Shown here: positions 25,681 to 61,788 of the stretch, piece by piece
Layout: each line of letters begins with the position of its first letter
Numbering within the stretch: the stretch's first letter is position 1
Source of the DNA: Phytoseiulus persimilis
Lineage: Eukaryota; Arthropoda; Arachnida; Mesostigmata; Phytoseiidae
DNA: 64,000 nucleotides
Direction: 5' to 3'
Assembly (NCBI GenBank): GCA_037576195.1
Contig: CM075102.1
Span: 33,166,745 to 33,230,744 of the forward strand
Notes under the pieces: generated by a model
Told to the model about the DNA's origin: nothing
Seen by the model: only the letters and a program-made list of their open reading frames with translations
Databases searched by the model: none
Program-made: the position numbers and the translations under genes

Positions 25681-27625
<1,945 letters not shown>

Positions 27626-31674: not shown

Positions 31675-32496
31675 CACTCCGAGTCAAGGAACCTATACCG
31701 ACAAACTGGGGCCCAGGATTTCGACTGGGGACTGACTGGAATACTTCAGAAAAGGGCTACCATTGGAGAATTTCAACGATATCGAGTTTCCGAAAGCCGA
31801 CACCGTGGAGAGGGCCTCGCTTGCCCTTGGCCACAATTGACCCATACATCCGTACACTCTGCTGTTATCTCTGCGCCAATGTATCGTGATAGAACTACGT
31901 ATTCGGGACGCAGGAAGTTTACGGGAAAAACTTCGTCCCCTCCTCTCACCATAATCGGGAAGATGCTCACCTTTAAGTCATCGCAGCAACTGTTTGGAGA
32001 TTAGTAGATTGATCGGATCTCAATTTTCTGTGCTTTTTCTTGCAACGAGATCCCTCTCAACTGCTCAGCGCCCACGGAGTGACTTAGAAATGAGGGAGTG
32101 TTCTCCTATAGCAATATTCTCTCTTTGACCTTGAGTTGCGAACGACAACTCACGTCAATAGATGCAGCTGAAACGGGTAGCTTGAATCTGTACGTGAATA
32201 TCTTCATTCCCCATTCCTTTGATCGACGAGATTCAGTATTCGGAAGAAATCTGATGCGCATTCGCTGACGACGAACTTCATACGGATCTGGCACCAACTA
32301 CACGTCTCTGCTCTAGGGCTCTAACGAGAGCCGGTTACTATATTTGCTTCAAGCTCAAACTGGGATCGGCGGATGGTGTTGGCCTTCACGAGAAACTGGG
32401 ATTAACGGGCTGGGACAGGTTTGAGAAACTTCGGTTCACAGTGTGTCACATATTTCGTTATTATTTGTTTGCGATACAGCGATACGTGGTATTCGG
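31675..32496. other. Left flank of the palindrome; nothing recognised
   Basis: Short frames only. This unique sequence is not repeated at the other palindrome edge. Confidence 0.5.
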
Positions 32497-32599
32497 ATCA
32501 ATACGGTACCGTATCTATTAATCGCCCATAGATGTTACAAACAGAATCTCATCTCGCTGATAATATATACAATAAGAGAAGGCCACAATAAACTCAACG

Positions 32600-32605
32600 T
32601 TTAAT
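32600..32605 (-). terminator. Likely poly(A) signal of the left FMO gene
   Basis: ATTAAA on the minus strand, 42 bp beyond the FMO stop codon at 32647. It is the common AATAAA variant; the same sequence follows the right FMO copy. Confidence 0.45.
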
Positions 32606-32646
32606 GGAGGATCCTTTGTGCGCAATTCCGTCTACACGCCGCAGAC

Positions 32647-35600
32647 CTATATCACCATCGTGAAAGCCATGATGACGAGGAATATCAAAGAAAAGAATGC
32701 ATGGAGTAACATCTTGATGCCCTCGACGAGCCAGTGACCGCGTTTGCCTTTAGCGATCGGCACTTTCCTTGTTTGCAAAGCGCCGACGATTCGTTCCTCA
32801 GCGGTCAGGAGGGTTTCGCGCGCTTTCGGCCATCTTCCCGGACCTTCGAGACGGTATTGATATGGGAGGAGAGGTCCGAACATGAGAGTAGACCAGAGGG
32901 TTGGGTCCGACACAAACAACTTGAACATGTTCGGTCTGACTCCAAGCTCGTCGGCCATCTCGTCCATATAAGGCATCCAGTCGACCTCAATTGTGTTGCG
33001 AGGTCCCTCGAAGTATCGACTTCTCACATTCCTTTTGTAAGCTTCAATGCTTTTGTTCATGACGTTCTTCGAAGGCAGAGTTTGCTTTCCTGCGAAGATT
33101 CGAGCTACCCATCGCGACTGGATTTCAGAGATCGGCATCAGTGGTCCGATGGGCTGAGCCATGCCTATGAAAGCGAGGGTGGGGTGGTTCGGGTCGAAAA
33201 CCATTTTGTAGAGGTCGATCTTGTTGTCTCGACAAGAGACGAGCTGGAAAGTCATCGAGCAATTAGAATTTCTCGGATACGACCAACCATGGTCTCCTCC
33301 CACAAAATCTTAGTGATTGAGTCTCTGACCGATGGCGTCACTAACGTTTTCGTCGAAGAACGGGAAACTGATTCTGTATCCAGTGGCCATGATGACGTCA
33401 TCCATTGGAGTGGATTTGGTTTCTCCTTCGAAAACAATTCCGTCCTCGGTGAAGCGTTTGATGTTGCCCTTGACAATGATAGTGCCGCTGAGGATACGGT
33501 TTGGTAGGGCGTCGTTCACCATGACGTGCTGAGCGAAGATTCTGCAACCCGATCGGGAAAAAAATTGTGGTTAATCATTGTCGAGGAGGGGGCTCTATGT
33601 GGAACTCGACCGACTATCTGGGCGTCAGCGCTCTCGAATAATCACCTGTGAGTGGGTTTCAGGTTGTAAACTTCGTGATCGAAACGGGTCTGGATTTTCT
33701 GTTCACAGAACCAGCACAGGATCTTGTACGGCAGCAGGGAGAAGAAAATGTTTCCCAGGCGTGTCATCACGCTGATGTCGAAAGGTCTTCCATGTTTGCC
33801 AACTCTGTGAATAACCCATGCTCCACGGCGAGTCGAAAGATAGACCTGTTCGGAGGATGTGAATTCAGTTGGAGAGGGAATTTCTGCAGATTTTGAAGCC
33901 TCGAAGTCAATTCAAGGAATTGCATCGGGCGAAGTTTCTCGACCAGGCTGCATCGAGGGCCAAATTTCTATCCGGATAACCCGCGTGTGATTTCCAGTTC
34001 TAATCGGGCTTCCGGTCGTGATCCATGAGGGCGTCGGACGAAGCATTGTTTAGGAGAGCCAAGCGCCACGCGATGAGGAGAGTAATAGATTCGGCCCCTC
34101 CCGCTCGGAGTTTTCCTCTCTTCGTGGCTTTTCGGAAGGTCTCTGCCAGGCCGAGACTCTCTGTGACTGCAGAACACGAGTAATGAAGACTGATATCGGA
34201 ACGATGACTGGATCCCGTTCAGCGTACCGATCGGTTACGCATTGAGAAAGTGAACGATCTTGAGCGAATGTACCGTATAATGCCTGGGAACACGTGGCTC
34301 GACGTTCGCCGGCTTGGCAGCAGCATGCCATCTGTTGCCAAGGACCAGAGCTGTGCGCCGCGCCGGAGATCCGCCGGCGAGCAGCGCCGCCGAGGTCGGG
34401 ATGGCCCCGCCAGCCGCCGTGCGCCCGAGCGCGGCGCCGGCGGCCTACCTTGTGATTGAGCCCCACAAGTAGGGGTGGCTCTCGGTCTCGGATGCTTGCG
34501 ACTAGTCGCAAGTATCCATGAGTCCGAGTCTGCGGCCCCTAGCCATAAGTCTCAAATCATGGTCTCAGTAACGGAACGCAATTAGAAAAACACAAGAACC
34601 TTCGATCAGCGAACCAATGAATCGGCTCCGTCTGTGTGCATGTTGCGGCGTCATTGCCGCCAGCACGATACATCTTAAGACTCTTCTCACCACAGTGAAT
34701 CGGAGTCGAACTGAACTATCGGAGGTCGTCTACGATCACGTGCTTCCCATGCGTATCGATGGACAGATCGGTTGTGCTCGAAATTCGATCCAAACGGCTT
34801 TCAATCGATACATCCGACTGTCTCGAAGATTTGAAAATTGTATCCACCCACAGAATTGACGATCCACGTTTCGCTTCGAATTTCAGTTCATCTTCCCCAT
34901 CGCGAAAAGATTGAAAAGTTTTGAAGCTCCCGTCGGCTCATTCCAAGTCTGCGAGTGAATTGATCACAGCGTAACGCGACATTCACGTCGCGGACTCTCT
35001 CTCCTGTCACTGGAGAGTTTAAGCTCCCGCCGTTTCCGTATGAACAAGCGTGTAGAAAGGTCGATGTGCGGAGCAAAACTGTCGGTGTGTCCAGAGTCCA
35101 GAGCGATGTCGAGTTCCGTCCTGCAGTGAAACAAAAGGTCGGCAAGAGGACGCCAACTTCCCAGGATTGCGAGGTCTGTTTTGCGAGACCTGCGGTTCTG
35201 TTCCCCCGATTCGATTCATAATCTCCGAGAAATGAATTCTCTGCAGAAAGTGAAATGCAATGAGCGTGTCCTTTCTGCAGGATATCCAAGCGCCGATATT
35301 TGGTTCGTTTTCGCGCAAATAGTTCAGTGAAAACTCGTTGGTGGCTTGGTTTGAAACTTCCTGACGCTTTCTGTAACGGGGGAGACCGCGCTACTGGTCG
35401 GAACGATGTCGAGCCGAGTCGAGAACTGCTCCATGACTCTGCATAAGTTGGACACCGTGAAGTATCCATCCAAGGTGAGATGACATGGGATCAGAAAATC
35501 TTGCCGGCCGATTGTGGAGAAATTAATGCTATTCTCGAAATTGTATGAGGAGGCTCCAACTGTCGATAATTCTAAGAGATTCCCTGCAACGAGAGCGAGA

Positions 35601-38600
35601 GGAGAGGCGACACTGCTCGCGCTACGTGTGTGTGTGTAATGTGTCGCCGTCGGGAGAGAACTATGATAAAAATCTTGTAGAGAGTCGTTACACGAGTGAC
35701 GAGCGGGCGTCTTCGAAACCAGGCCTTTCCGCACGTGGAGTTACGAGTCGGTCGAGAGGAATTTTCGATTCACAGAACGTCCATGAGCGAACAAGCCGCT
35801 TAACGTTCTCTTCACCAACAATGAATCAAACAATCCAGGTCTGGCGGATCTTCGGACGATTGACGCTTCCTTCAGGTTCCGTGGGCGAGCCGAAAAAAGT
35901 TTTTTGTAAGCTCTGTCTTGAACCATCGAAAACTCTATGTGGCTACGGTGACAGCACTGGAACCGAAACTCTCCTCCACCACATCGCCCGTAAACATCCA
36001 GGTGAAGTTTCGGGAGGTAAAAAATCGAGAACATTGTTAGATTCTTGGAAGAAATTTGTCACAAACGACGTCGAATCGCATTCCGGTGAATCTGCTCGGG
36101 CTCGAAAATTCAGTCTCGCGAGGGACTTGGCCTTGTGGATAAGCGAGGACATCCTGCCTTTCTCTTCCGTTGAGGGCTCAGGAATGAAAAGATTTTTCGT
36201 TCGCAAAAAAAATTTTGACCAGCGAATCGGAAATCCCTGTCCGCAGCACGGTTTCAAGAGGAGCCCTTGATGACGCTTACGATCACCTCAAAAGAATCAT
36301 CGTTGGAAAACTCCCGAAACCGGGACGTTTCCATATCTCTACCGATACCTGGACAGACAGATATCGACACCTCCCGTACATCACTGTGGTTCTCCACTAC
36401 TTGGACGAAAACTTCACCTTGACGTGCATACCCCTCAAAACAGACCATTTCCCCGGACCTCATACGGGACCCAACATCCTTGAGGAAATTATTTCTACTT
36501 TGGAACAGTTTAAGCTGAACAAAGAACTTATGTTCACCGTTATATCGGATTCAGCGAGGAATATGATACGCGCATTCAAAGACTACATGCACATCCGCTG
36601 CGCGGACCATCGGATCCATCGGGCTTTGACAGCCGATTTTTACGGAACCCCCATCGGCATGAGAGTTCTCGAGTTGCGATCCAGACTCATGAAAGTTTAT
36701 CGTCATCTCATCTATAGAAAAAACCGCTTGTCAGTCGAATTGCGAAAGAAAAAGCGCAGGAAGTCTTCTTGGACCAACTGAAAAAAGCCGATGAAATCGA
36801 GAATTCTGGATCTCAGTATCTCACAGTACGTCATAATTCGTCACAGATCGGGAATGCGGACGATCGATTAGTAGATCTCTGCGTGAATGACAACTCGCTT
36901 CAAGGGTATGACTCGAAAGGACTCAAAGCTGATGTAGCAACTCGATGGGCGTCTGTGTGTCGACTTTTCGAGTCCGCAGCCAATTCATATGAGGTTTTCA
37001 ACGAAGTCCTATTGAAGATCGGCTCTTACGAACATCTGCTGGATCCAAGAGAAGTTGATGAAATTCGCATTACTGCGAAACAGTATCGGGTATGTTGCAT
37101 CTGCTGCAAGCAGTAAGTGCACCTTCCGAGATGCTGCTGGACTCACTTAAATTTTCTAATCTCGAACAGAATCAGTCCAGGTATGCTAATTACCTCCAGG
37201 GCCAGTGATTCTGGGTTGCTGAATGTCCTGTCATTTCACAATTTCAGGCAATTCTTGATCTCATGATGGTCTTGCAATCCTCGGCGAAACCATCGATCAA
37301 CATGGTCGTTCTCGGGGTGATAGATATCGAGGCAAATCTTCTGAAGTTCGAAGATGAGTTCTCTTCGGAAACGAGAGATACGGGCATGAAATTCAATCGA
37401 GAACTTGCTCAGCAACTCCGGCAGTGTGTGAGCGGCCGTATGCGCCCATTTCACAGGGTGGAACTTTTCGGACCACTCTTAGATCCAGAGATGAAGCAAA
37501 TCCCGAAAATCAGGGCTGAGGTCCCGGGTGGAGACGTCATCAAGTTCTTACTCGATGCCATTTACGAGTACACTACCATTGAGGAGTCCGACGACGACAT
37601 CGCAATTGTTCCTGAGTCGCCGATCAAGAAGCAAAGGTCGTCGTTGATAAACAAATACACCGCACGTTCCCATGACACCGAGACCGTGTCCAGCGAAGTC
37701 GCCCGGTATCTTGCATTGCCAGTGAAACTCAGTGAAATGTGCAACGCAGACGAGGCAGACAAAGTTCTGCAATGGTGGTCAAGGAATGCAACAATTTTCC
37801 CAAGGGTATCGGAACTAGTGCGTATTGTGCTTCCCATTCCGGCGACGTCAGCAGAGCCAGAAAGAAGATTCTCGTCAGCCGGGAACGTTTTGCGCGAAAA
37901 GCGATGCTCAATGGACCCTTCCACAATGTCCAAAACCCTGTTCATTCACGATAACAGAAAATTCCTGTAGATACCACTTTTTGCTTCTGGTGATTTGAAA
38001 GTTGCCGTGGAAAATGGCTGGTTCCTGCCGGGAAATGAGTTCCAGCAGGGAAATCTTCCGTTCCGTTACCAGGTCCGCAACTGTCAAGCCAGATTCTTTT
38101 CTCATGAGGAACCCATTCTCCTCACAAATGCATTTCGAAATGTCTGAGAGCGCTGGAAAAGATCCTGGAGCTCGGGGAACGGGTCCCTCATGAAAAAAAA
38201 TCTGGTTTGACAGTTGCAGACCTGGTGACAGAACGGAAGATTTCCTCGCTGGAACTCATTTCCTGGCACGTACCAGCCATTTACCACCGCAACTTTCGAA
38301 TCATCAGAAGCAAAAAGTGGAGGGTGATGGAACAGGTGGTCGGATACCGGAGTAACCCAGGCTGGATACCAGCCCATTTTCTAGACTACAGAGACGTTGG
38401 CAACATTTTCAAAAAAATCCGGTTTTATAGTTGTAGACCTGGTACTTGACACTCATTGTAGAGAATAATATACAACTTGTGATCGCCCTATTAAGATGTT
38501 CCTAATTTTAAATCTGGAATTGATATATTGCACGTTGAGTCTGAAGTACTCAATAGGACGGAAGAAATTGAAACATGACTTTTGTGAATTATCTCGCTTG

Positions 38601-40842
38601 AGTACAGGCACTTCTCGCGCCGAACAGGCTGAATTCCACTAGCCACTGCCTGTGAGCAGGAATCTGCGGCGCGCCGGGCCAGTTTTCTCCGCCGCGGGGC
38701 GCCGCGGGGCGCCGCGGGGCGCCGCGGGGCGCCGCGGCGATCGTCGCCGCCGCCTTTCTTTCCGTCCGGCGCCGCCGCCGTCAAAATCCTCACGGCGCAC
38801 AACTCTGCCAAGGACAGCCATTTGCAATGCGTACAGAATTTCTTTCTGATCTACCTTGCTCTTCTGACGGACGCTTTCTGTTCTCCCATCATCGGATCCC
38901 ATTAAATGAATCAGCTCCGATTTTTTCTGGCCGGGGAAGCTCGGAAGCTTCAACGATCTCTGATTTTCGGCGCAAGAACTACGCTGTGCAGGACGCCCGC
39001 ACCGGATCAAAATTCTGACGGAAACAAACTGACCTGGTCCGCAATGGCGCTGAGTTCAACGGCTGCGTCGCCGCCAGAGTTTCCTACGCCAACGACACAG
39101 ACTTGACGATTCTCGAAGCCTGCCGGGCGGCGGTAGTCGTGGGTGTGGATGACGCGTCCCTTGAACTTCTCCTGATCAGGGAACTTCGGCATCAGAGGGA
39201 ATGTATGATGTCCTGCAACGGATTCCGAACTCAGACGCGAAAACTAAGGAATGCGGGCGACGAGTGGGTGATAGGATTCAAGGATTAGAGAAAGCGATGA
39301 ATCACGTGAACAAATGAAGTCTCCGATCGCAATCCACGCACCAGTGCAAACCATGACACCGTCGTAAACATCTTCGGAGATCTCTCCATCATCCAAGTTC
39401 TTGACCTTGACCTCCCAACGGTGAGTCTCAGCGTAGTCGTCGGTGGGCTTCACCGACAAGACTTCGTGGCGGAGCTTGATGTAGTTCCGCATTCCGTACT
39501 TCTCAGCGTACATGTCCAAGTATTGGATCATTTTGGAGTTGTGCATGAAGTTCGGGAACTCGGTTGGGGGTGGGAAGTCGCTATAATAGAGAAAAGTAAC
39601 GTTTTTGAGCTTTCAGAACTCGATTCTCGCTCTAAGAAATCCTGGGCGCGCGCACGGAGTCACACCTCCCAATGTTGGTGAGCCACAAACGTCATTGGCA
39701 AGAATCGCAAACCAAATCGCGACATCAAAGACTTCAGCAGGTGACAGAGATTCACCGACCAAATTCAGCGGAAAGAAGATGCTCCGGGGACTCGACGCCT
39801 GAGCCATGAATGTATTCCCGAACGCAAGAACAAAATATGGAGGCCTACGCGTTGTCATAAATTTTCCCGCGCAATGTCACCCATCCTCAAGTCAGCGCGA
39901 AGCGTATGATTTATTGCTACGGAACTTGCCGCGCGATCGCGATGCAGGCAGAACGGTCCTCACTTTCGCACAAGAGATTCTTCCATTGGTAGCCCTTTCA
40001 ACGGTTCTCGAATGCAAATCGAAACGGAAAGCGAGGGACTGCAAGCATTGCAACGATATATCATTGCCTCGATAATTGGTTTCTGGTCGGTTACGTAACA
40101 CGGAAGTAAGTGAGGCCGCTAAATGGCGCGCGAGATCAAAGTCAAGCACAGAAAGTCGCAGCCGCTCACAGTGCGCAATTATGAGCAGGACGCTTTTCGC
40201 TAGAGACCTCTCGGAATCGGAGAGGCCTGGTTTGGAGTCTGTAATGCAGCAAATCCTGTTCACGACAGTGTGGAACAAAGACGGGGGAAATTTGATTTTC
40301 GTCCACAGAAAATGCCAAACTGATCGGCAGGACCGACTTTGGAGCCCAAAACCCGGCACTGATGTTCCGAGTCAGCGTTTCAGCAAATACGCTCATGAGT
40401 GACCTGATTGCAGGAGTCAGATGCTGATATCCTTCAAATCGATAAGATAGCCCTGATATGAGCAAGACGACCTCGCCTCTTTGTTGACACGCTCGTCTTT
40501 AATCGCGTTCTCGGTAAGGGACGAGTATTTAGGTTCCAATCTCGTTCCGCTTTGCAGTTCAGTTTCGATTGTTCAGGTAAGGGCCATGAAAACTTGAGAC
40601 CCGAGAATATTGTCGTGAGAATGAGCTTACCTGAAGGCAGAAATTTCTTTCGATGAATTGATAATGGTGCTCTTCATGACGCCTCCCTTCGCCTCTTCTG
40701 GGTGGTCACTGTATCTCCAGAGTCCTCCAGTGTCGGAAGTGCGCTCGAAGCAAACGACATCCAGACCTTCCTCGACACAAGCTTTAATGGCCGTCATCCC
40801 AGACGCTCCACCGCCTAGAACTGCCACTTTCGGAGCTGGCAT
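32647..40842 (-). CDS. Flavin-containing monooxygenase, intact copy, 6 exons, 540 aa
   Basis: Minus-strand exons 40842-40631, 39580-39342, 39212-39034, 33845-33646, 33541-33346 and 33243-32647 join in phase (212+239+179+200+196+597 nt = 541 codons). FMOs oxygenate soft nucleophiles (N, S) using FAD and NADPH. The FAD motif GGGASG is at residues 10-15, the FMO signature FKGRVIHTHDY at 167-177, the NADPH motif GVGNSG at 192-197 and ATGY at 329-332. The last ~21 residues are a hydrophobic anchor (FFSLIFLVIMAFTMVI), as in microsomal FMOs. Length matches the family (about 530-560). Introns 1, 2, 4 and 5 are 1050, 129, 104 and 102 bp; intron 3 is 5.2 kb and holds a hAT copy in antisense, a hairpin and minisatellites. 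A second, damaged copy lies in the other palindrome arm. Confidence 0.93.
34470..34541. mobile_element. 72-bp MITE (hAT-like), left arm
   Basis: The termini are inverted and start TAGGGG like the 2.7-kb element at 28950. The centre is the perfect palindrome ACTTGCGACTAGTCGCAAGT apart from one end base. Flanks CCCACAAG and GCCATAAG agree at 6 of 8 positions, consistent with a decayed 8-bp duplication. The copy in the other arm is at 56149-56220. Confidence 0.6.
35821..37970 (+). mobile_element. hAT transposase copy, left arm
   Basis: From the ATG at 35821 the product begins with a BED-type zinc finger (CKLC, then HHIARKH). It continues with the hAT catalytic-region block STDTWTDRYRHLPYITVVLH and the CADHRIHR block, and ends with the dimerisation domain (WWSRNATIFPRVSELVRIVL, then PATSAEPERRFSSAGNVL). 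The coding line changes frame at about 36240 and 36775, and a GTATGT...TTCAG interval near 37091-37248 may be a natural intron, so this copy is probably not functional as it stands. It lies antisense to FMO within intron 3. Terminal repeats were not located. Confidence 0.85.
37975..38319. repeat. Fold-back hairpin, left arm
   Basis: Two ~135-bp inverted arms (about 37975-38118 and 38184-38319), roughly 88% identical by eye, are separated by about 65 bp. Both arms begin CACTTTTTGCTTCTG at their outer ends. It starts 5 bp after the hAT transposase stop codon. Transcribed, it would form a long imperfect hairpin. It could be a foldback element or part of the hAT 3' end. Confidence 0.75.
38691..38738. 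repeat. GC-rich 10-bp minisatellite, left arm
   Basis: Nearly five copies of GCCGCGGGGC in FMO intron 3, close to exon 3. The right arm has the complementary array at about 51890-51940 with a different copy number. Confidence 0.85.
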
Positions 40843-43139
40843 GGCTGAAAACAAAGCTTCTGTTAGAAATTCGTTCCGTGATTATAAGAAACTCTCCCTG
40901 GCTCTGAAAGCAAGCTCACAACGACTTTGGGACACATTTGAACGTTTTCGAAACGTCCACCGAACTTGTGAAGAGTTTTTGCGTGCAGCAGTCAGTTTGG
41001 CCTCTGAGACGTCCTCGAAGAGTCCTCGAGAACCTCCGCGCTCTCATCTAGAATTTCCTGAGCAGCTTCGATCATATCTTCAGCGCTTCTCGCTCATCGC
41101 TCGGATCGCTTGCAGAGAAATCGTCTGCCTTATTTCAATTTTCTGGGTTAACTGGATTCGGTCGCCCGCCACGTCCGCAGGAAGCAACCCAATTCTGTTC
41201 CGTTGGCGAAGATTTATTCCGAGCAGCAGTGGGTCAAGCCGGGTTCAAAATGTCCTTGGATACAGACGAGATTACGGACGAAGCGTACTATACAAGTGAT
41301 CACCCGACTTCCTGGCGAAAGGGGAGAGGAACCGGTTCCGGCGGGGAACTTTCGCTTCCATTTGAAGGAGGAAATTTCCGGCGAAGCCACGGCGTATGAA
41401 AAAAAGGGAAACGCTTCCGCGACTTCGTCGTACCGTTAGGTCAATGGGAGGAAAAGCACATCTGCGTATTGGGGAACGGGAGATGTGAGAGTCTCGCTTG
41501 AAGACTTCGGCGTTCCGATGCCAACGACCGGGCCCCGTTTTGGGTCACCCAGAATCGGAATCTCTCCACAACCAGAACTTCTGACGGCCCAGAGAACCGG
41601 AGCAAGCAGAAAATAGTTTGCGCGTGGATCGTCGATTCCAGTTCGCATTCTGTGCCTGCGACAACACAGTCCATGATTCCTACTAATCAAACAACCACAG
41701 TAGGATTAGGCCAGCTGTGACATTCAACTCGGGATGACTACCGAAACGACCGACTGTGAGAAGTCGACGAAGCGATTCTGCTCTTCCCCGTGGGCAAAAC
41801 TATCTGTTCTGCGTCCCAACTGATATTTTCCTCCTAAAATCCGCGGAAGATTACATACTTGAGTACGTAGTCTCAGAAAGGGAGCAGACACTCCGAATAT
41901 TCCTCGACATCGTGGCTCACAATCCGACTCAAACAAAGAATATGATTCATCTAAACCATTCCCAGCTTGATTCACAGGCTGGTGATGGTGACGGAGCTCA
42001 ACGCGCAGTGCAGTCACCTGCAGTGCAAGCAGTCACGGCCTGCATTCGAACTTCACTTGACACGAGGCAGAGCACACGTGAAGTTGGATTTCGTGAACAC
42101 GCCGATAAAACTCATCTCCCGAGGCCTCCAACTCACCTTAAGATGGCTCGCTGTTGCGTATCCTCAAAAAAGCAAATCTCCAAGAGTCGAACGTCCGTAT
42201 TATCGAAGATCAGCACAACATCTATAGCTCACGGCCGTAATCGGCTCCCTCAGCTTGACTGGACTGCGCCGCGTAGCTATTATATGAGCCTCCTTTCCCC
42301 GCTCGCCTGTGGAATCGCGGCGCAACCCTCGCAGAACGCCCGTCCGACGATCTCGGTGTTACGGCTTTAAGTTCCGGCCCCGTCCGGCTTTCCTTACCCA
42401 CAAACTAGCTGAATCGCGGCTTCACCGAGAAGCATCGACGTGAATTCGGCCCGGGGTATTCTGCTGATGGCACTTAGGCTTGGCACCGATCAGACTTCTG
42501 GCTGGGGTCCTCGAATCCTTCGGGGAATGCCTGGAAAGTCTTCTGCGCATGACTCAAATGTTCTGTCATCGATTACAAGACGCGGAAAAGGCTGTCTGAC
42601 AGACTGAGCGGCTATGCTATGCAAAGAGTCCGTCCGAGCGCTGAGGTTGATGAGGCATTCAACGATGACGCAGTTCTTGGCTCAATGAGCTCATTATCCC
42701 GATGAAAATACACAAATGGCAACTGAAGTGGAGTGGCTGGCGTGCGGACGGAAACCGCGCCAAGATTTTGTTCTATAAAATCGCTACTCCGATAAGACTG
42801 AGACGTTAGGCCAAACACGATTTGAAAACAGAGAGATAAATACTCGGACCTTGAGTTTTATTGAGTTCGTCAACGAATTCAGGCATGGTCGCAAGTTACC
42901 GACCTCCGTGAGTCTTCTCGGAATTCGATTCTTAACTGCTGAATCGGAGCTTTACAGGTGCTTCGTCCATTAACTAGGGCGCCGCTGATTGTTCCTATTT
43001 TCTGATGAGTGTCTCTGAGACATGCGTGGATTCTAATCTCAGTTTCTGCAGACGCTGGCTCACCGGAGTGCGAACGCAGCGGCGAACGCACGAGAAGAAT
43101 CTCAACGAATTCCGAAACACATTCACACTCCGTCGAGCT
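40843..43139. other. Upstream of the left FMO; nothing recognised
   Basis: Open frames here (for example 41756-42370) match no family I know. The region is the likely FMO promoter plus unknown sequence, and is duplicated at 47460-49789. Confidence 0.4.
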
Positions 43140-46100
43140 CCTCTTCTCGGTCTGTAGCGGGTCGGGTACCAGTTACCCGAATCCCAGTTACCTGAATCCC
43201 AGTTACCCGAATCCAGATTACCCTCTCTCACCGCTAAATCCTCATGCGCCGAACTCCATGTCCGATTCGCGCGCCGACAGAACTTCGGAAGTTCAAGTCA
43301 GCCAATACTGCCTCTCCCTCAAGGATGACGTTACCCAAGAGTTCCAGTCTCCTATCCCGATTGAAGTTCACGATATTTCTAGTAGGTCTCCGTGGAGACG
43401 TCCTTCACAAAGGGCCTAACCTCTGACTACCGCTGATTTATTAGCGTGTTTTATACTTATTGGCAGCCCTGGCTGCGAGCTCGGAAAAATCAACTTAAAC
43501 CACTGATATCTGATTAACGGGGTACCGGATCGGGCTCCCAGTTGCACGACTGGACTCGCCAGACTCTCTGGATGCCGACACTCCGCCCCGCAGGGCTAAG
43601 TCCCTGCGGGGCGCCCCCAAGTCCCTGCTCGGGAAGGTAGGAGAATTAAACCGATCCGGCCACGTGGTGACGAGCTACCGGCACTTGAGTATTGGCGTGG
43701 TAAAAATTGGATGTTTTCACTAAAATTGCCTAGCTGACTAGTTCTTCTTGTTGATATTTTCGACGAGGCTCGGTGACCTTCGTCGAAAGAGTCAACGGAA
43801 GTTTTCCCTAATTTTTTTTCCGTTTTCGAGATATACTCGAAAAACGGGCTTTTCAGGGGTTTTGTGTGGGACTCGATCCCCAGGAACTCACCGGCGTGTG
43901 TCACTCTGCCTGGTTCCTTCTTGGACTTTGCCCGACCTGGGACTAACTTCAGCTCTCGATATTACCAGTTTTTTAACAACTTCTAGTTCAACTACTCGAA
44001 CTCACTCCGTTCAGCGCGTGGCCTACTGTTGGAGTGACTTGGTCTTTGCAGGGCGTCTGCGCGCAAGTTTTTTAGAGGGTGAGGTCGGTCCGGCGGCGGC
44101 GCTAGGTTTAGCGGGAACTAGAGTGTCTGCATCCGCCGAAGAGCCTAACCTAACCCAGCACTGTACTTCACTGCACGAACACGGCTTTGAATAATCTCTT
44201 TGGATATCTCTTTCAGTCAGTTCCTATGCTTCTCCTAGGGATCCGTCGTGACTCTGGACCTAGACTCTAGAGCGTGAGGATTTGGCGGTGAGAGAGGGTA
44301 ATTTGGAGTCGGGTAACTGGGATTCGGGTAACTGGGATAGGAAGGCTCGTCACCACGTGGCCGGATCGGTTTAATTCTCCTACCTTCCCGAGCAGGGACT
44401 TGGGAGCGCCCCGCGGGGCTAAGACCCTGGTAAATCGGGGTCGATAAATTCAAAAATCACATTTTCAAGCCCCTAGGGGCATTATTCCGAAAAGTCACCT
44501 TGACAAGGTCAAACGGAGGTTACACCGGTTTCCGGACCTAGGCGGACTGGCGAGTCCAGTCGTGCAACTGGGAGCCCGATCCGGTACCCCGTTGATCAGA
44601 TATCAGTGGTTTAAGTTGATTCTTCCGAGCTCGCAGCCAGGGCTGCCAATAAGTACAAAACACGCTAATAAATCAGCGGTAGTCAGAGGTTAGGCTCTTT
44701 GTGAAGGACGTCTCCACGGAGACCTACTAGAAATATCGTGAACTTCAATCGGGATAGGAGACTGGAACTCTTGGGTAACGTCATCCTTGAGGGAGAGGCA
44801 GTATTGGCTGACTTGAACTTCCGAAGTTCTGTCGGCGCGCGAATCGGACATGGAGTTCAGCGCATGAGGATTTAGCGGTGAGGTAGGGTAATATGGATTC
44901 GGGTAACTGGGATTCGGGTAACTGGGATTCAGGTAACTGGGATTCGGGTAACGGGTACCCGACCGTGACGAGCTACCGGCACTTGAGTATTGGCGTGGTA
45001 AAAATTGGATTTTTTTACTAAAATTGCCTAGCTGACTAGTTCTTTTTGTTGATATTTTCGACGAGGCTCGGTGACCTTCGTCGAAAGAGTCAACGAAAGT
45101 TTTCCCTAATTTTTTTCCGTTTTCGAGATATACTCGAAAAACGGGCTCTTCAGGGGTTTTGTGTGGGACTCGATCCCCAGGAACTCACCGGCGTGTGTCA
45201 CTCTGCCTGGTTCCTTCTTGGACTTTGCCCGACCTGGGACTAACTTCAGCTCTCGATGTTACCAGTTTTTTAACAACTTCTAGTTTAACTACTCGAACTC
45301 ACTCCGTTCAGCGCGTGGCCTACCGTTGGAGTGACTTGGTCTTTGCAGGGCGTCTGCGCGCAAGTTTTTCAGAGGGTGAGGTCGGTCCGGCGGCGCTGCT
45401 AGGTTTAGCGGGAACTAGAGTGTCTGCATCCGCCAAAGAGCCTAACCTAACCCAGCACTGTACTTCACTGCACGAACACGACTTTGAATAATCTCTTTGG
45501 ATATCTCTTTCAGTCAGTTCCTATGCTTCTCCTAGGGATCCGTCGTGACTCTAGACCTAGACTCTAGAGCATGAGGATTTGGCGGTGAGAGAGGGTAATT
45601 TGGAGTCGGGTAACTGGGATTCGGGTAACTGGGATAGGACGGCTCGTCACCACGTGGCCGGATCGGTTTAATTCTCCTACCTTCCCGAGCAGGGACTTGG
45701 GGGCGCCCCGCAGGACCAAGTCCCTGGTAAATCGGGGTCGATAAATTCAAAAATCACATTTTCAAGACCCTAGGGGCATTATTTCGAAAAGTCACCTTGA
45801 CCAGGTCAAACGGAGGTTACACCGGTTTCCGGACCTAGGCGGACTGGCGAGTCCAGTCGTGCAACTGGGAGCCCGATCCGGTACCCCGTTAATCAGATAT
45901 CAGTGGTTTAAGTTGATTCTTCCGAGCTCGCAGCCAGGGCTGCCAATAAGTATAAAACACGCTAATAAATCAGCGGTAGTCAGAGGTTAGGCTCTTTGTG
46001 AAGGACGTCTCCACGGAGACCTACTAGAAATATCGTGAACTTCAATCGGGATAGGAGACTGGAACTCTTGGGTAACGTCATCCTTGAGGGAGAGGCAGTA

Positions 46101-47460: not shown

Positions 47461-49789
47461 CTACAGACCGAGAAGAGGAGCTCGACGGAGTGTGAATGTG
47501 TTTCGGAATTCTGAGATTCTTCTCGTGCGTTCGCCGCTGCGTTCGCACTCCGGTGAGCCAGCGTCTGCAGAAACTGAGATTAGAATCCACGCATGTCTCA
47601 GAGACACTCATCAGAAAATAGGAACAATTCACGGAGACAATCAGCGGCGCCCTAGTTAATGGACGAAGCACCTGTAAAGCTCCGATTCAGCAGTTAAGAA
47701 TCGAATTCCGAGAAGACTCACGGAGGTCGGTAACTTGCGACCATGCCTGAATTCGTTGACGAACTCAATAAAACTCAAGGTCCGAGTATTTATCTCTCTG
47801 TTTTCAAATCGTGTTTGGCCTAACGTCTCAGTCTTATCGGAGTAGCGATTTTATAGAACAAAATCTTGGCGCGGTTTCCGTCCGCACGCCAGCCACTCCA
47901 CTCAGTTGCCATTTGTGTATTTCATCGGGATAATGAGCTCATTGAGCCAAGAACTGCGTCATCGTTGAATGCCTCATCAACCTCAGCGCTCGGACGGACT
48001 CTTTGCATAGCATAGCCGCTCAGTCTGTCAGACAGCCTTTTCCGCGTCTTGTAATCGATGACAGAACATTTGAGTCATGCGCAGAAGACTTTCCAGGCAT
48101 TCCCCGAAGGATTCGAGGACCCCAGCCAGAAGTCTGATCGGTGCCAAGCCTAAGTGCCATCAGCAGAATACCCCGGGCCGAATTCACGTCGATGCTTCTC
48201 GGTGAAGTCGCGATTCAGCTAGTTTGTGGGTAAGGAAAGCCGGACGGGGCCGGAACTTAAAGCCGTAACACCGAGATCGTCGGACGGGCGTTCTGCGAGG
48301 GTTGCGCCGCGATTCCACAGGCGAGCGGGGAAAGGAGGCTCATATAATAGCTACGCGGCGCAGTCCAGTCAAGCTGAGGGAGCCGATTACGGCCGTGAGC
48401 TATAGATGTTGTGCTGATCTTCGATAATACGGACGTTCGACTCTTGGAGATTTGCTTTTTTGAGGATACGCAACAGCGAGCCATCTTAAGGTGAGTTGGA
48501 GGCCTCGGGAGATGAGTTTTATCGGCGTGTTCACGAAATCCAACTTCACGTGTGCTCTGCCTCGTGTCAAGTGAAATTCGAATGCAGGCCGTGACTGCTT
48601 GCACTGCAGGTGACTGCACTGCGCGTTGAGCTCCGTCACCATCACCAGCCTGTGAATCAAGCTGGGAATGGTTTAGATGAATCATATTCTTTGTTTGAGT
48701 CGGATTGTGAGCCACGATGTCGAGGAATATTCGGAGTGTCTGCTCCCTTTCTGAGACTACGTACTCAAGTATGTAATCTTCCGCGATTTTTTAGGAAAAT
48801 ATCAGTTGGGACGCAGAACAGATAGTTTTGCCCACGGGGAAGAGCAGAATCGCTTCGTCGACTTCTCACAGTCGGTCGTTTCGGTAGTCATCCCGAGTTG
48901 AATGTCACAGCTGGCCTAATCCTACTGTGGTTGTTTGATTAGTAGGAATCATGGACTGTGTGTTGTCGCAGGCACAGAATGCGAACTGGAATCGACGATC
49001 CACGCGCAAACTATTTTCTGCTTGCTCCGGTTCTCTGGGCCGTCAGAAGTTCTGGTTGTGGAGAGATTCCGATTCTGGGTGACCCAAAACGGGGCCCGGT
49101 CGTTGGCATCGGAACGCCGAAGTCTTCAAGCGAGACTCTCACATCTCCCGTTCCCCAATACGCAGATGTGCTTTTCCTCCCATTGACCTAACGGTACGAC
49201 GAAGTCGCGGAAGCGTTTCCCTTTTTTTCATACGCCGTGGCTTCGCCGGAAATTTCCTCCTTCAAATGGAAGCGAAAGTTCCCCGCCGGAACGGGTTCCT
49301 CTCCCCTTTCGCCAGGAAGTCGGGTGATCACTTGTATAGTACGCTTCGTCCGTAATCTCGTCTGTATCCAAGGACATTTTGAACCCGGCTTGACCCACTG
49401 CTGCTCGGAATAAATCTTCGCCAACGGAACAGAATTGGGTTGCTTCCTGCGGACGTGGCGGGCGACCGAATCCAGTTAACCCAGAAAATTGAAATAAGGC
49501 AGACGATTTCTCTGCAAGCGATCCGAGCGATGAGCGAGAAGCGCTGAAGATATGATCGAAGCTGCTCAGGAAATTCTAGATGAGAGCGCGGAGGTTCTCG
49601 AGGACTCTTCGAGGACGTCTCAGAGGCCAAACTGACTGCTGCACGCAAAAAAAATCTTCACAAGTTCGGTGGACGTTTCGAAAACGTTCAAATGTGTCCC
49701 CAAAGTCGTTGTGAGCTTGCTTTCAGAGCCAGGGAGAGTTTCTTATATAATCACGGAACGAATTTCTAACAGAAGCTTTGTTTTCAGCC
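47461..49789. other. Upstream of the right FMO copy; nothing recognised
   Basis: Inverted duplicate of 40843-43139; no gene recognised. Confidence 0.4.
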
Positions 49790-51889
49790 ATGCCAGCTCC
49801 GAAAGTGGCAGTTCTAGGCGGTGGAGCGTCTGGGATGACGGCCATTAAAGCTTGTGTCGAGGAAGGTCTGGATGTCGTTTGCTTCGAGCACTTCCGACAC
49901 TGGAGGACTCTGGAGATACAGTGACCACCCAGAAGAGGCGAAGGGAGGCGTCATGAAGAGCACCATTATCAATTCATCGAAAGAAATTTCTGCCTTCAGG
50001 TAAGCTCATTCTCACGACAATATTCTCGGGTCTCAAGTTTTCATGGCCCTTACCTGAACAATCGAAACTGAACTGCAAAGCGGAACGAGATTGGAACCTA
50101 AATACTCGTCCCTTACCGAGAACGCGATTAAAGACGAGCGTGTCAACAAAGAGGCGAGGTCGTCTTGCTCATATCAGGGCTATCTTATCGATTTGAAGGA
50201 TATCAGCATCTGACTCCTGCAATCAGGTCACTCATGAGCGTATTTGCTGAAACGCTGACTCGGAACATCAGTGCCGGGTTTTGGGCTCCAAAGTCGGTCC
50301 TGCCGATCAGTTTGGCATTTTCTGTGGACGAAAATCAAATTTCCCCCGTCTTTGTTCCACACTGTCGTGAACAGGATTTGCTGCATTACAGACTCCAAAC
50401 CAGGCCTCTCCGATTCCGAGAGGTCTCTAGCGAAAAGCGTCCTGCTCATAATTGCGCACTGTGAGCGGCTGCGACTTTCTGTGCTTGACTTTGATCTCGC
50501 GCGCCATTTAGCGGCCTCACTTACTTCCGTGTTACGTAACCGACCAGAAACCAATTATCGAGGCAATGATATATCGTTGCAATGCTTGCAGTCCCTCGCT
50601 TTCCGTTTCGATTTGCATTCGAGAACCGTTGAAAGGGCTACCAATGGAAGAATCTCTTGTGCGAAAGTGAGGACCGTTCTGCCTGCATCGCGATCGCGCG
50701 GCAAGTTCCGTAGCAATAAATCATACGCTTCGCGCTGACTTGAGGATGGGTGACATTGCGCGGGAAAATTTATGACAACGCGTAGGCCTCCATATTTTGT
50801 TCTTGCGTTCGGGAATACATTCATGGCTCAGGCGTCGAGTCCCCGGAGCATCTTCTTTCCGCTGAATTTGGTCGGTGAATCTCTGTCACCTGCTGAAGTC
50901 TTTGATGTCGCGATTTGGTTTGCGATTCTTGCCAATGACGTTTGTGGCTCACCAACATTGGGAGGTGTGACTCCGTGCGCGCGCCCAGGATTTCTTAGAG
51001 CGAGAATCGAGTTCTGAAAGCTCAAAAACGTTACTTTTCTCTATTATAGCGACTTCCCACCCCCAACCGAGTTCCCGAACTTCATGCACAACTCCAAATG
51101 ATCCAATACTTGGACATGTACGCTGAGAAGTACGGAATGCGGAACTACATCAAGCTCCGCCACGAAGTCTTGTCGGTGAAGCCCACCGACGACTACGCTG
51201 AGACTCACCGTTGGGAGGTCAAGGTCAAGAACTTGGATGATGGAGAGATCTCCGAAGATGTTTACGACGGTGTCATGGTTTGCACTGGTGCGTGGATTGC
51301 GATCGGAGACTTCATTTGTTCACGTGATTCATCGCTTTCTCTAATCCTTGAATCCTATCACCCACTCGTCGCCCGCATTCCTTAGTTTTCGCGTCTGAGT
51401 TCGGAATCCGTTGCAGGACATCATACATTCCCTCTGATGCCGAAGTTCCCTGATCAGGAGAAGTTCAAGGGACGCGTCATCCACACCCACGACTACCGCC
51501 GCCCGGCAGGCTTCGAGAATCGTCAAGTCTGTGTCGTTGGCGTAGGAAACTCTGGCGGCGACGCAGCCGTTGAACTCAGCGCCATTGCGGACCAGGTCAG
51601 TTTGTTTCCGTCAGAATTTTGATCCGGTGCGGGCGTCCTGCACAGCGTAGTTCTTGCGCCGAAAATCAGAGATCGTTGAAGCTTCCGAGCTTCCCCGGCC
51701 AGAAAAAATCGGAGCTGATTCATTTAATGGGATCCGATGATGGGAGAACAGAAAGCGTCCGTCAGAAGAGCAAGGTAGATCAGAAAGAAATTCTGTACGC
51801 ATTGCAAATGGCTGTCCTTGGCAGAGTTGTGCGCCGTGAGGATTTTGACGGCGGCGGCGCCGGACGGAAAGAAAGGCGGCGGCGACGAT

Positions 51890-51940
51890 CGCCGCGGCGC
51901 CCCGCGGCGCCCCGCGGCGCCCCGCGGCGCCCCGCGGCGG
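51890..51940. repeat. GC-rich 10-bp minisatellite, right arm
   Basis: Copies of GCCCCGCGGC, the complement of the left-arm array, with fewer full units. Confidence 0.8.
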
Positions 51941-52310
51941 AGAAAAAACTGGCCCGGCGCGCCGCAGATTCCTGCTCACAGGCAGTGGCTAGTGGAATTC
52001 AGCCTGTTCGGCGCGAGAAGTGCCTGTACTCAAGCGAGATAATTCACAAAAGTCATGTTTCAATTTCTTCCGTCCTATTGAGTACTTCAGACTCAACGTG
52101 CAATATATCAATTCCAGATTTAAAATTAGGAACATCTTAATAGGGCGATCACAAGTTGTATATTATTCTCTACAATGAGTGTCAAGTACCAGGTCTACAA
52201 CTATAAACCGGATTTTTTTGAAAATGTTGCCAACGTCTCTGTAGTCTAGAAAATGGGCTGGTATCCAGCCTGGGTTACTCCGGTATCCGACCACCTGTTC
52301 CATCACCCTC

Positions 52311-52659
52311 CACTTTTTGCTTCTGATGATTCGAAAGTTGCGGTGGTAAATGGCTGGTACGTGCCAGGAAATGAGTTCCAGCGAGGAAATCTTCCGTTCT
52401 GTCTGTCACCAGGTCTGCAACTGTCAAACCAGATTTTTTTTCATGAGGGACCCGTTCCCCGAGCTCCAGGATCTTTTCCAGCGCTCTCAGACATTTCGAA
52501 ATGCATTTGTGAGGAGAATGGGTTCCTCATGAGAAAAGAATCTGGCTTGACAGTTGCGGACCTGGTAACGGAACGGAAGATTTCCCTGCTGGAACTCATT
52601 TCCCGCAGGAACCAGCCATTTTCCACGGCAACTTTCAAATCACCAGAAGCAAAAAGTGG
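52311..52659. repeat. Fold-back hairpin, right arm
   Basis: Inverted duplicate of the hairpin at 37975-38319, with the same two arms and loop and small indels. Confidence 0.75.
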
Positions 52660-52662
52660 TAT

Positions 52663-54869
52663 CTACAGGAATTTTCTGTTATCGTGAATGAACAGGGTTT
52701 TGGACATTGTGGAAGGGTCCATTGAGCATCGCTTTTCGCGCAAAACGTTCCCGGCTGACGAGAATCTTCTTTCTGGCTCTGCTGACGTCGCCGGAATGGA
52801 AAGCACAATACGCACTAGTTCCGATACCCTTGGGAAAATTGTTGCATTCCTTGACCACCATTGCAGAACTTTGTCTGCCTCGTCTGCGTTGCACATTTCA
52901 CTGAGTTCACTGGCAATGCAAGATACCGGGCGACTTCGCTGGACACGGTCTCGGTGTCATGGGAACGTGCGGTGTATTTTTTATCAACGACGACCTTTGC
53001 TTCTTGATCGGCGACTCAGGAACAATTGCGATGTCGTCGTCGGACTCCTCAATGGTAGTGTACTCGTAAATGGCATCGAGTAAGAACTTGATGACGTCTC
53101 CACCCGGGACCCAGCCCTGATTTTCGGGGGATTTGCTTCATCTCTGGATCTAAGAGTGCTCCGAGAAGTTCCACCCTGTGAAATGGGCGCATACGGCCGC
53201 TCACACACTGCCGGAGTTGCTGAGCAAGTTCTCGATTGAATTTCATGCCCGTATCTCTCGTTTCCGAAGAGAACTCATCTTCGAACTTCAGAAGATTTGC
53301 CTCGATATCTATCACCCCGAGAACGACCATGTTGATCGATGGTTTCGCCGAGGATTGCAAGACCATCATGAGATCAAGAATTTACCTGAAATTGTGAAAT
53401 GACAGGACATTCAGCAACCCAGAGTCACTAGCCCTGGAGGTAATTAGCACACCTGGACTGATTCTGTTCGAGATTAGAAAATTTAAATGAGTGAGTCCAG
53501 CAGCATCTCGGAAGGTGCTCTTACTGCTTGCAGCAGATGCAACATACCCGATACTGTTTCGCAGTAATGCGAATTTCATCAACTTCTCTTGGATCCAGCA
53601 GATGTTCGTAAGAGCCGATCTTCAATAGGACTTCGTTCAAAACCTCATATGAATTGGCTGCGGACTCGAAGAGTCGACACACAGACGCCCATCGAGTTGC
53701 TACATCAGCGCAGAGTCTTTCGACGAATCCCCTTGAAGCGTCCGCAGATCTTCCGATTCCCGATCTGACGAATTATGACGTACTGTGAGATACTGAGATC
53801 CAGAAAGGGATCGGAATGCGAACATTGAACATCCGTCATGAATTATAGTTTCCGGAGAGAACCAACAAGAAGATCCGAAACAGCTTACTTGCTCGATTTC
53901 ATCGGCTTTTTTCAGTTGGTCCAAGAAGACTTCCTGCGCTTTTTTCTTTCGCAATTCGACTGACAAGCGTTTTTTTGTATAGATGAGATGACGATAAACT
54001 TTCATGAGTCTGGATCGCAACTCGAGAACTCTCATGCCGATGGGGGTTCCGTAAAAATCGGCTGTCAAAGCCCGATGGATCCGATGGTCCGCGCAGCGGA
54101 TGTGCATGTAGTCTTTGAATGCGCGTATCATATTAATCGCTGATCCGATATAACGGTGAACATAAGTTCTTTCTTCAGCTTAAACTCTTCCAAAGTAGAA
54201 ATAATTTCCTCAAGGATGTTGGGTCCCGTATGAGGTCCGGGGAATGGTCTGTTTTGAGGGGTATGCACGTCAAGGTGAAGTTTTCGTCCAAGTAGTGGAG
54301 AACCACAGTGATGTACGGGAGGTGTCGATATCTGTCTGTCCAGGTATCGGTAGAGATATGGAAACGTCCCTGTTTCGGAAGTTTTCTCAACGATGATTCC
54401 TTTGAGGTGATCGTGAGCGTCATCAAGGGCTCCTCTTGAAACCGTGCTGCGGACAGGGATTTCCGATTCGTGGTCACAATTTTTTTTGCGAACGAAAAAT
54501 ATTTTCATTCCTGAGCCCTCAACGAAAGAGGAAGGCAGGAGGTCCTCGCTTATCCACAAGGCCAACCCTCGCGAGACTGAATTTTCGAGCCCGAGCAGAT
54601 TCACCGGAATGCGATTCGACGTCGTTTGTGACAGATTTCTTCCAAGAATCTGACAATGTTCTCGATTTTTACCTCCCGAAACTTCACCTGGATGTTTACG
54701 GGCGATGTGGTGGAGGAGAGTTTCGGTTCCAGTGCTGTCACCGTAGCCACATAGAGTTTTCGATGGTTCAAGACAGAGCTTACAAAAAACTTTTTTTCGG
54801 CTCGCCCACGGAACCTGAAGGAAGCGTCAATCGTCCGAAGATCCGCCAGACCTGGATTGTTTGATTCAT
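52663..54869 (-). mobile_element. hAT transposase copy, right arm
   Basis: Minus-strand duplicate of the left-arm hAT gene, from the ATG at 54869 to the stop at 52663. It has the same BED finger, central blocks and dimerisation domain, but more frame breaks. It retains an 84-bp stretch (GAGCAA|GTAAGC...) that looks like an intron and is missing in the left copy. Confidence 0.85.
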
Positions 54870-56148
54870 TGTTGGTGAAGAGAACGTTAAGCGGCTTGTT
54901 CGCTCATGGACGTTCTGTGAATCGAAAATTCCTCTCGACCGACTCGTAACTCCACGTGCGGAAAGGCCTTTTTCGAAGAGCGCCCGCTCGTCACTCGTGT
55001 AACGACTCTCTACAAGATTTTTATCATAGTTCTCTCCCGACGGCGACACATTACACACCGTACGTAGCGCGAGCAGTGTCGCCTCTCCTCTCGCTCTCGT
55101 TGCAGGGAATCTCTTAGAATTATCGACAGTTGGAGCCTCCTCATACAATTTCGAGAATAGCATTTTCTCCACAATCGGCCGCAAGATTTTCTGATCCCAT
55201 GTCATCTCACCTTGGATGGATACTTCACGGCGTCCAACTTATGCAGAGTCACGGAGCAGTTCTCGACTCGGCTCGACATCGTTCCGACCAGTAGCGCGGT
55301 CTCCCCCGTTACAGAAAGCGTCAGGAAGTTTCAAACCAAGCCACCAACGAGTTTTCACTGAACTATTCGCGCGAAAACCAACCTAATATCGGCGCTTGGA
55401 TACCCTGCAAAAAGGACACGCTCATTGCATTTCACTTTTTGCAGAGAATCCATTTCTCGGAGATTATGAATCGAATCGGGGGAACAGAACTGCAGGTCTC
55501 GCAAAACAGACCTCGCAATCCTGGGAAGTTGGCGTCCTCTTGCCGACCTTTTGTTTCACTGCAGGACGGAACTCGACATCGTCTCTGGACTCTGGACACA
55601 CCGACAGTTTTGCTCCGCACATCGACCTTTCTACACGCTTTTTCATACGGAAACGGCGGGAGCTTAAACACTCCCAGTGACAGGAGAGAGAGTCCGCGAC
55701 GTGGATGTCGCGTAACGCTGTGATCAATTCACTCGCATACTCGGAGTGAGCCGACGGGAGCTTCAAAACTTTTCAATCTTTTCGCGATGGGGAAGACGAA
55801 CTGAAATTCGAAGCGAAACGTGGATCGTCAATTCTGTGGGTGGATACAATTTTCGAAATCTTCGAGACAGTCGGATGTATCGATTGAAAGCCGTTTGGAT
55901 CGAATTTCGAGCACAACCGATCTGTCCATCGATACGCATGGGAAGCACGTGATCGTAGACGACCTCCGATAGTTCAGTTCGACTCCGATTCACTGTGGTG
56001 AGAAGAGTCTTAAGATGTATCGTGCTGGCGGCAATGACGCCGCAACATGCACACAGACGGAGCCGATTCATTGGTTCGCTGATCGAAGGTTCTTGTGTTT
56101 TTCTAATTGCGTTCCGTTACTGAGACCATGATTCGAGAGACTTATGGC

Positions 56149-56220
56149 TAGGGGCCGCAGACTCGGACTCATGGATACTTGCGACTAGTCGCAAGCATCC
56201 GAGACCGAGAGCCACCCCTA
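56149..56220. mobile_element. 72-bp MITE (hAT-like), right arm
   Basis: Inverted duplicate of 34470-34541, including the central palindromic segment. Confidence 0.6.
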
Positions 56221-58242
56221 CTTGTGGGGCTCAATCACAAGGTAGGCCGCCGGCGCCGCGCTCGGGCGCACGGCGGCTGGCGGGGCCATCCCGACCTCGG
56301 CGGCGCTGCTCGCCGGCGGATCTCCGGCGCGGCGCACAGCTCTGGTCCTTGGCAACAGATGGCATGCTGCTGCCAAGCCGGCGAACGTCGAGCCACGTGT
56401 TCCCAGGCATTATACGGTACATTCGCTCAAGATCGTTCACTTTCTCAATGCGTAACCGATCGGTACGCTGAACGGGATCCAGTCATCGTTCCGATATCAG
56501 TCTTCATTACTCGTGTTCTGCAGTCACAGAGAGTCTCGGCCTGGCAGAGACCTTCCGAAAAGCCACGAAGAGAGGAAAACTCCGAGGGGCCGAATCTATT
56601 ACTCTCCTCATCGCGTGGCGCTTGGCTCTCCTAAACAATGCTTCGTCCGACGCCCTCATGGATCACGACCGGAAGCCCGATTAGAACTGGAAATCACACG
56701 GGTTATCCGGATAGAAATTTGGCCCTCGATGCAGCCTGGTCGAGAAACTTCGCCCGATGCAATTCCTTGAATTGACTTCGAGGCTTCAAAATCTGCAGAA
56801 ATTCCCTCTCCAACTGAATTCACATCCTCCGAACAGGTCTATCTTTCGACTCGCCGTGGAGCATGGGTTATTCACAGAGTTGGCAAACATGGAAGACCTT
56901 TCGACATCAGCGTGATGACACGCCTGGGAAAACATTTTCTTCTCCCTGCTGCCGTACAAGATCCTGTGCTGGTTCTGTGAACAGAAAATCCAGACCCGTT
57001 TCGATCACGAAGTTTACAACCTGAAACCCACTCACAGGTGATTATTCGAGAGCGCTGACGCCCAGATAGTCGGTCGAGTTCCACATAGAGCCCCCTCCTC
57101 GACAATGATTAACCACAATTTTTTTCCCGATCGGGTTGCAGAATCTTCGCTCAGCACGTCATGGTGAACGACGCCCTACCAAACCGTATCCTCAGCGGCA
57201 CTATCATTGTCAAGGGCAACATCAAACGCTTCACCGAGGACGGAATTGTTTTCGAAGGAGAAACCAAATCCACTCCAATGGATGACGTCATCATGGCCAC
57301 TGGATACAGAATCAGTTTCCCGTTCTTCGACGAAAACGTTAGTGACGCCATCGGTCAGAGACTCAATCACTAAGATTTTGTGGGAGGAGACCATGGTTGG
57401 TCGTATCCGAGAAATTCTAATTGCTCGATGACTTTCCAGCTCGTCTCTTGTCGAGACAACAAGATCGACCTCTACAAAATGGTTTTCGACCCGAACCACC
57501 CCACCCTCGCTTTCATAGGCATGGCTCAGCCCATCGGACCACTGATGCCGATCTCTGAAATCCAGTCGCGATGGGTAGCTCGAATCTTCGCAGGAAAGCA
57601 AACTGCCTTCGAAGAACGTCATGAACAAAAGCATTGAAGCTTACAAAAGGAATGTGAGAAGTCGATACTTCGAGGGACCTCGCAACACAATTGAGGTCGA
57701 CTGGATGCCTTATATGGACGAGATGGCCGACGAGCTTGGAGTCAGACCGAACATGTTCAAGTTGTTTGTGTCGGACCCAACCCTCTGGTCTACTCTCATG
57801 TTCGGACCTCTCCTCCCATATCAATACCGTCTCGAAGGTCCGGGAAGATGGCCGAAAGCGCGCGAAACCCTCCTGACCGCTGAGGAACGAATCGTCGGCG
57901 CTTTGCAAACAAGGAAAGTGCCGATCGCTAAAGGCAAACGCGGTCACTGGCTCGTCGAGGGCATCAAGATGTTACTCCATGCATTCTTTTCTTTGATATT
58001 CCTCGTCATCATGGCTTTCACGATGGTGATATAGGTCTGCGGCGTGTAGACGGAATTGCGCACAAAGGATCCTCCATTAAACGTTGAGTTTATTGTGGCC
58101 TTCTCTTATTGTATATATTATCAGCGAGATGAGATTCTGTTTGTAACATCTATGGGCGATTAATAGATACGGTACCGTATTGATTTCGCGAAGACTGGTC
58201 CGAGGAATGCAGTCTCATGAACGGACAAAACTTCTCTTGCAG

Positions 58243-58686: not shown

Positions 58687-58874
58687 TCAAAACGCCCAGA
58701 GAGTTCACACGATGCTCCTCAATCGATGAAATTATTGCTTCGGCTAGCGATTCTGTATCAAGGTGCCTTCCGGTCGATTGAGCTTGATGAGATTGAAATG
58801 AATATGTGATCTTGTGAGTTTTTGTTCGGTGACATATTTCCAATTCTAATGTATGACTACAGAGTTATCTTCTC

Positions 58875-58880
58875 AATAAA
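58875..58880 (+). terminator. Poly(A) signal downstream of TMEM135 exons
   Basis: AATAAA 188 bp after the TMEM135 stop codon, with a T-rich stretch after it. Confidence 0.5.
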
Positions 58881-59061
58881 GTCGAAGTTTTTCCTACCAA
58901 ATCTATACTCAATTGACCTCCGGTGAGGATCTCAAAGTTTTAAGCTCCGATGTATGACTACCGTGAAGGACAGCAGAGAGGTCTCGCATGTTGGCCGCCA
59001 AGTGTATTGTTTCTTTTGAGAAAGGTGCCTGATAATGAACTGAGAGCGGGTTCGAGTCCCT

Positions 59062-61758: not shown

Positions 61759-61788
61759 TCCGATTATAAGTGTGCGGGGACAGTAAAT

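Follow-up and report, generated by a model that had tools for sequence, protein, structure and literature searches.

Organization of the locus

The window, the whole 64,000-nucleotide stretch of Phytoseiulus persimilis DNA that was analysed (contig C2:33166745-33230744), belongs to a 181-Mb assembly of 127 contigs, four of which are large (54.7, 52.0, 38.9 and 28.1 Mb), and its GC content is about 51%. It carries a flavin monooxygenase (FMO) gene with a hAT transposon in one of its introns, an inverted copy of both, and between them an array of a foldback-type element (Table 1). The comparisons took in 150 kb of sequence surrounding the window, and 50 kb surrounding the matches on contigs C1 and C3. 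Positions are relative to the window, and outside it a position is that on contig C2 minus 33166744.

Table 1. Features of the palindrome and of the sequence around it
Feature	Position	Strand	Remarks
45-bp tandem array, ~56 copies	29080-31604		Left of arm A
Arm A	32497-43983	+	Blastn of the window against itself
FMO gene, arm A, six exon blocks	32647-40839	-	PF00743 in 6/6 blocks; frames open
Exon blocks of the arm A gene	40681-40839, 39330-39599, 39030-39232, 33660-33890, 33340-33560, 32647-33240	-	Edges approximate, set by eye
hAT in the FMO intron of arm A	34346-38807	+	Between 8-bp CCAAGGAC repeats; PF05699
Array of ~1.2-kb foldback-type element	43159-46629	+	One full, one composite and one cut composite unit
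Orientation switch	46620-46640		Forward up to element position ~909-918, then reverse from 829
Arm B, inverted copy of arm A	46630-58184	-	Blastn of the window against itself
FMO gene, arm B	49790-58034 (approximate)	+	Frame broken in exon blocks 1, 2, 4 and 6
hAT in arm B	51822-56344 (approximate)	-	84 bp absent from A; many small indels
Stretch R	58185-69784 (window holds 58185-64000)		Single-copy except short dispersed repeats
Segment F	69785-72118		Left of the element array of copy C
Copy C, inverted copy of A without hAT	72133-80822		Followed by a 45-bp array, as found left of A
Block D	96846-102168		Repeats F and the element array; no FMO arm

The two arms are each about 11.5 kb long and 98.4% alike, which bears out, in the same place, the palindrome with 11.5-kb arms that an earlier sequence-only reading had claimed. 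The inverted alignment falls into two parts: 32497-36801 against 58184-53892 (98.36% identity, 39 mismatches, 21 gap openings) and 36804-43983 against 53805-46630 (98.38%, 35 mismatches, 30 gap openings). An inverted repeat of this length and similarity far exceeds chance. The spacer (43984-46629) is not mirrored from end to end, and its 2,646 bp agree with the 2.6 kb of the earlier reading; the tandem units assigned to it there are not plain ones and form an array of the foldback-type element, with a switch of orientation at about 46630. A perfect 14-bp palindrome, ATACGGTACCGTAT, is found at 32501-32514 and 58167-58180, only a few bases in from where each arm ends on its outer side, the latter copy being where arm B meets stretch R.

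The array comprises a full element (43159-44338), a composite unit (44345-45635) and a cut composite unit (45642 to about 46629), and parts of it are present in both orientations. The element also occurs alone, at contig C3:13862736-13863948, beside an 8-bp direct repeat. Its ends consist of 15-bp units in inverted orientation, and we liken it to Foldback (FB-like) DNA elements. The resemblance lies in the inverted ends made of short tandem units and in the 8-bp direct repeat flanking the solo copy; the difference is that the inverted ends match over only about 82 bp here. On contig C1 (8601991-8606710) there are two tandem 2,361-bp foldback-type units that are 100% identical and may be either very recent or a duplicate made in assembly.

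The FMO copies and their neighbourhood

Together, the six exon blocks of the arm A gene cover positions 3-527 of the 532 in the PF00743 profile. The hAT, 4.46 kb long, sits between exons 3 and 4; its C-terminal dimerisation domain (PF05699) was found at 37209-37967 (E = 4.2e-17), and CCAAGGAC, on both sides of it, is its target-site duplication. A single CCAAGGAC marks the empty site in copy C.

An independent six-frame search of the whole genome with PF00743 (27 of 27 candidates scored) yielded six matches in A, six in C and, in B, eight shorter pieces. The same search detected further FMO loci, namely one match on contig C3 at 15.1 Mb and six on contig C2 at 31.95 Mb. In both A and C, the exon 1 and exon 4 matches each contain one stop codon, which we place at the exon edge since the frames of the exons are open. 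Comparison of A with C over the 1,678 bases of the exon blocks shows 16 substitutions and no indels, and all six frames are open in both. The exons of the two arms had been described as nearly identical, and this holds for substitutions, of which there are none between A and B over the same bases of A; it fails for indels, which break the frame in four of the six blocks of B. Exactly three places in the genome, all on contig C2, matched the FMO part of the arm, and the remainder of the arm gave the same result (3 of 3 candidates scored in either search); neither search found hidden copies on unplaced contigs.

The third copy, C, and the partial block D lie 8-38 kb past the end of the window; as assembled, the palindrome is thus part of a cluster of A, B, C and partial D. 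Stretch R abuts the outer end of arm B abruptly. Segment F follows the element array in C and in D, but not in A, and the 45-bp array at copy C extends over about 15 kb (81729-96765). In the genome, duplicated FMO genes form a local cluster, together with arrays of the foldback-type element and of the 45-bp unit. Local gene duplication is a common fate of detoxification genes such as FMO, and the near-identical copies close together, along with the two other FMO loci, fit this pattern. The copies here differ from it in being inverted and accompanied by element arrays, as far as the assembly goes.

Differences between the arms

Differences among A, B and C were polarised in a three-way alignment, in which 6,558 sites were counted, all outside the hAT (32500-34335 and 38820-43560). 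Private indels and substitutions number 14 and 7 in B, 1 and 4 in A, and 2 and 86 in C, arm B accounting for 14 of the 17 private indels. Those of B are mostly gains or losses of one or two bases in very short repeats, and all seven of its substitutions adjoin indels (at 40975, 41835-41841 and 43230-43233). The sole private indel of A is a 13-bp gap. The contrast between indels and substitutions is strong for B versus C (Fisher p = 7.5e-11) and not significant for B versus A (p = 0.13), because A has so few changes; the split of 14 indels to 1 between B and A has a two-sided binomial probability of 0.001. Equal real copies would share leftover errors, and a 14-to-1 split is therefore unlikely for them. 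Many indels without a lone substitution would hardly suit real decay, and would suit an under-corrected consensus.

The transposons of the arms had been said to differ by substitutions and an 84-bp indel, and the alignment of A and B confirms both and adds a 24-bp gap with surrounding changes; the substitutions number in the dozens. The 84 bases are present in B and missing from A after A36803, and most of them also occur in a related hAT copy on contig C1. When the hAT is polarised against this copy over 3,776 columns, A is singled out at 35 sites and B at 20, of which 11 fall in one complex 250-bp bin; polarised sites in the first ~750 bases, where the contig C1 copy is poorly aligned, are weak. 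Private indels in the hAT, counted by hand from the alignment list, number about 24 in B versus 4 in A.

Over the first 0.8 kb of the foldback-type element, 12 substitutions and no indels are private to A, and 3 and 2 are private to B. The last array unit of A shows three clustered private indels versus one substitution, and given these indels the error-like signal may lack a sharp start at the join of the arms. The private differences of A sit mainly in repeated DNA, and those between A and B cluster in the hAT and the foldback-type element; mis-assembly or mis-polishing of repeats could also cause them. Mis-polishing of the element in A from other known units is not a full explanation: when element positions 512-1190 were compared, with the columns read by eye, nine alleles of the first unit of A were absent from 12 other units, and its alleles at 680 and 746 were common to the later units of A and to D1. 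The unit on contig C1, which was misaligned (320 apparent private substitutions and 11 indels), was left out of the unit comparison.

Junctions of the inverted segment

The sequence is continuous, with no N, at both the A/B and the B/R junctions, and a 25-base sequence over the orientation switch occurs once in the genome. At the switch, the unit mirrored by arm B is the full element that opens the array and not the last unit. We took inverted microhomology of 2-8 bp as the criterion for a fold-back switch; AAGTT is common to both templates here, although an additional G interrupts it in the joined sequence, which strictly leaves 0 bp. Arm B is more than A read backwards, because the hAT differs and because four substitutions and the 13-bp gap are unique to A. 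For this reason a simple fold-back of one molecule, such as a read turned on itself, is disfavoured.

The far end of the segment has a seam. Block D breaks off at a single N (102169), some 25 bp away from the point in the element at which arm B starts. Its last 24 bases repeat the initial 24 of arm B apart from one difference, and the first 22 match throughout. The 346 bp after this N (102170-102515) are 100% identical to the end of an unplaced contig (C68:1-346), and a 63-N gap follows the N after 1.48 kb. The 9.6 kb of contig C68 next to the overlap are single-copy but for one dispersed repeat and have no full-length match elsewhere in the assembly (40 of 133 candidate matches scored). Contig C68 is exactly 125,000 bases long, and 16 of 20 other sampled contigs are also multiples of 25,000; presumably these are pieces cut by the Hi-C scaffolding software.

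With the segment 46630-102168 reversed, the array of A could continue into that of D, the two overlapping by about 105 identical bp, and from there into F, an order also seen in copy C. The head-to-tail order that results is suggestive only. Identity of the last array unit of A with D was considered as proof of continuity and is not diagnostic, the second unit of A being identical over the same ~105 bp. A published account describes wrong orientations and misplaced debris in Hi-C scaffolded assemblies (PMC10659057). The present case resembles these errors in having unplaced pieces in 25-kb steps, one of which overlaps a placed contig, and a seam within a repeat array; it differs in that the A/B junction has no N.

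Origin of the palindrome

The copies, the indels of arm B and the seam after block D can be read directly from the assembled sequence. The earlier reading had left the origin of the palindrome between a real inverted duplication with some gene conversion and two haplotypes joined head to head by assembly. The indels of B, its broken frame and the far-end seam give a head-to-head join made by assembly the better support. We consider it somewhat more probable than its rivals combined that the palindrome is an assembly product, that is, an extra or wrongly oriented copy on top of a real FMO duplication, and favour this because of the imbalance of errors, the seam and the simpler head-to-tail order. 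Arm B would then be a second, weakly supported representation of an A-type copy or, alternatively, a tandem copy in a segment that was inserted in reverse. The error would have arisen in the element array, where long stretches are alike, partly in both directions. On this basis we infer that the A/B join is absent from the DNA of the animal. Arm B may be the other haplotype, the same locus twice, or a misoriented tandem copy. A similar picture, the asymmetry excepted, would arise from a real second copy if polishing drew its reads to A. The differences in the hAT, and the four substitutions and 13-bp gap private to A outside it, count against an assembly product, as do the N-free junctions and the fitting spacer.

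Those last two features belong to the chief alternative, a serious rival though we rate it as clearly less probable: a real inverted duplication, in which a break in the element array was followed by fold-back on inverted short homology, the FMO arm was recopied in reverse and F was lost. F, which comes after the array in C and D, is missing from A, as this requires, and the differences in the hAT and at the 13-bp gap show two different molecules or lineages. The common AAGTT would be the homology used, although the extra G interrupts the match, and since B mirrors the first full element rather than the last unit, the switch must skip 2.6 kb. The indels of B would be explained if the arm were left unpolished because its short reads mapped to A, but the 14-to-1 imbalance then requires a technical cause of its own, and the seam at the far end of the segment also stands against a real fold-back.

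In human fold-back inverted duplications the short, single-copy and unmirrored spacer measures about 0.8-70 kb (Hermetz et al. 2014, PMC3907307), and the 2,646 bp found here are inside this range, so that the anatomy by itself would allow a real event. Those cases are also alike in their inverted arms, kilobase-size unmirrored spacer, a few shared letters at the switch and repeats at the edges. The present locus, seen in assembled sequence, differs from them in the error-like indels of one arm and in its imperfect microhomology.

If the palindrome is real, which we think less likely than not, the foldback-type array may have seeded a fold-back duplication of FMO, and arm B would be either freshly formed or already a pseudogene. 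The array would in that case serve repeatedly as the origin from which a detoxification-type gene is amplified, in the one orientation and in the other. It is very improbable that A and B are real paralogues kept alike by arm-to-arm gene conversion, a process known from the palindromes of sex chromosomes: the absence of A-B substitutions at ~32.5-34.5 and ~37.9-40.9 kb versus the diverged middle could be a conversion mosaic, but the private substitutions of A (35 in the hAT, 12 in 0.8 kb of the foldback-type element and 3 in the ~6.1 kb outside both) lie mostly in multi-copy DNA, recent origin with mis-assembly of repeats suffices, and conversion is superfluous outside the repeats, where A and B are almost identical.

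Taken at face value, the palindrome would be read as a hot spot of amplification and gene conversion, and the annotation would gain a third FMO gene, a broken one. With an assembly product as the favoured reading, the comparison also offers a way to spot a suspect arm from its letters: polarise the differences against a third copy and weigh indels against substitutions. The FMO cluster and its element arrays may still be relevant to detoxification, though the copy number of the cluster needs measuring.

Reading frames left of the cluster

Long open frames run through the 45-bp array left of arm A (29033-31735; 876 aa on the minus strand and 825 aa on the plus strand). Open frames on both strands are to be expected with a unit length divisible by three, and we see no evidence that they would be coding. 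Another repeat, of 24 bp, forms a 269-aa frame at 20353-21162, and its only Pfam match is below the curated cut-off. A 402-aa open frame on the plus strand (26417-27625), also left of the cluster, reads as what we take to be a complete actin.
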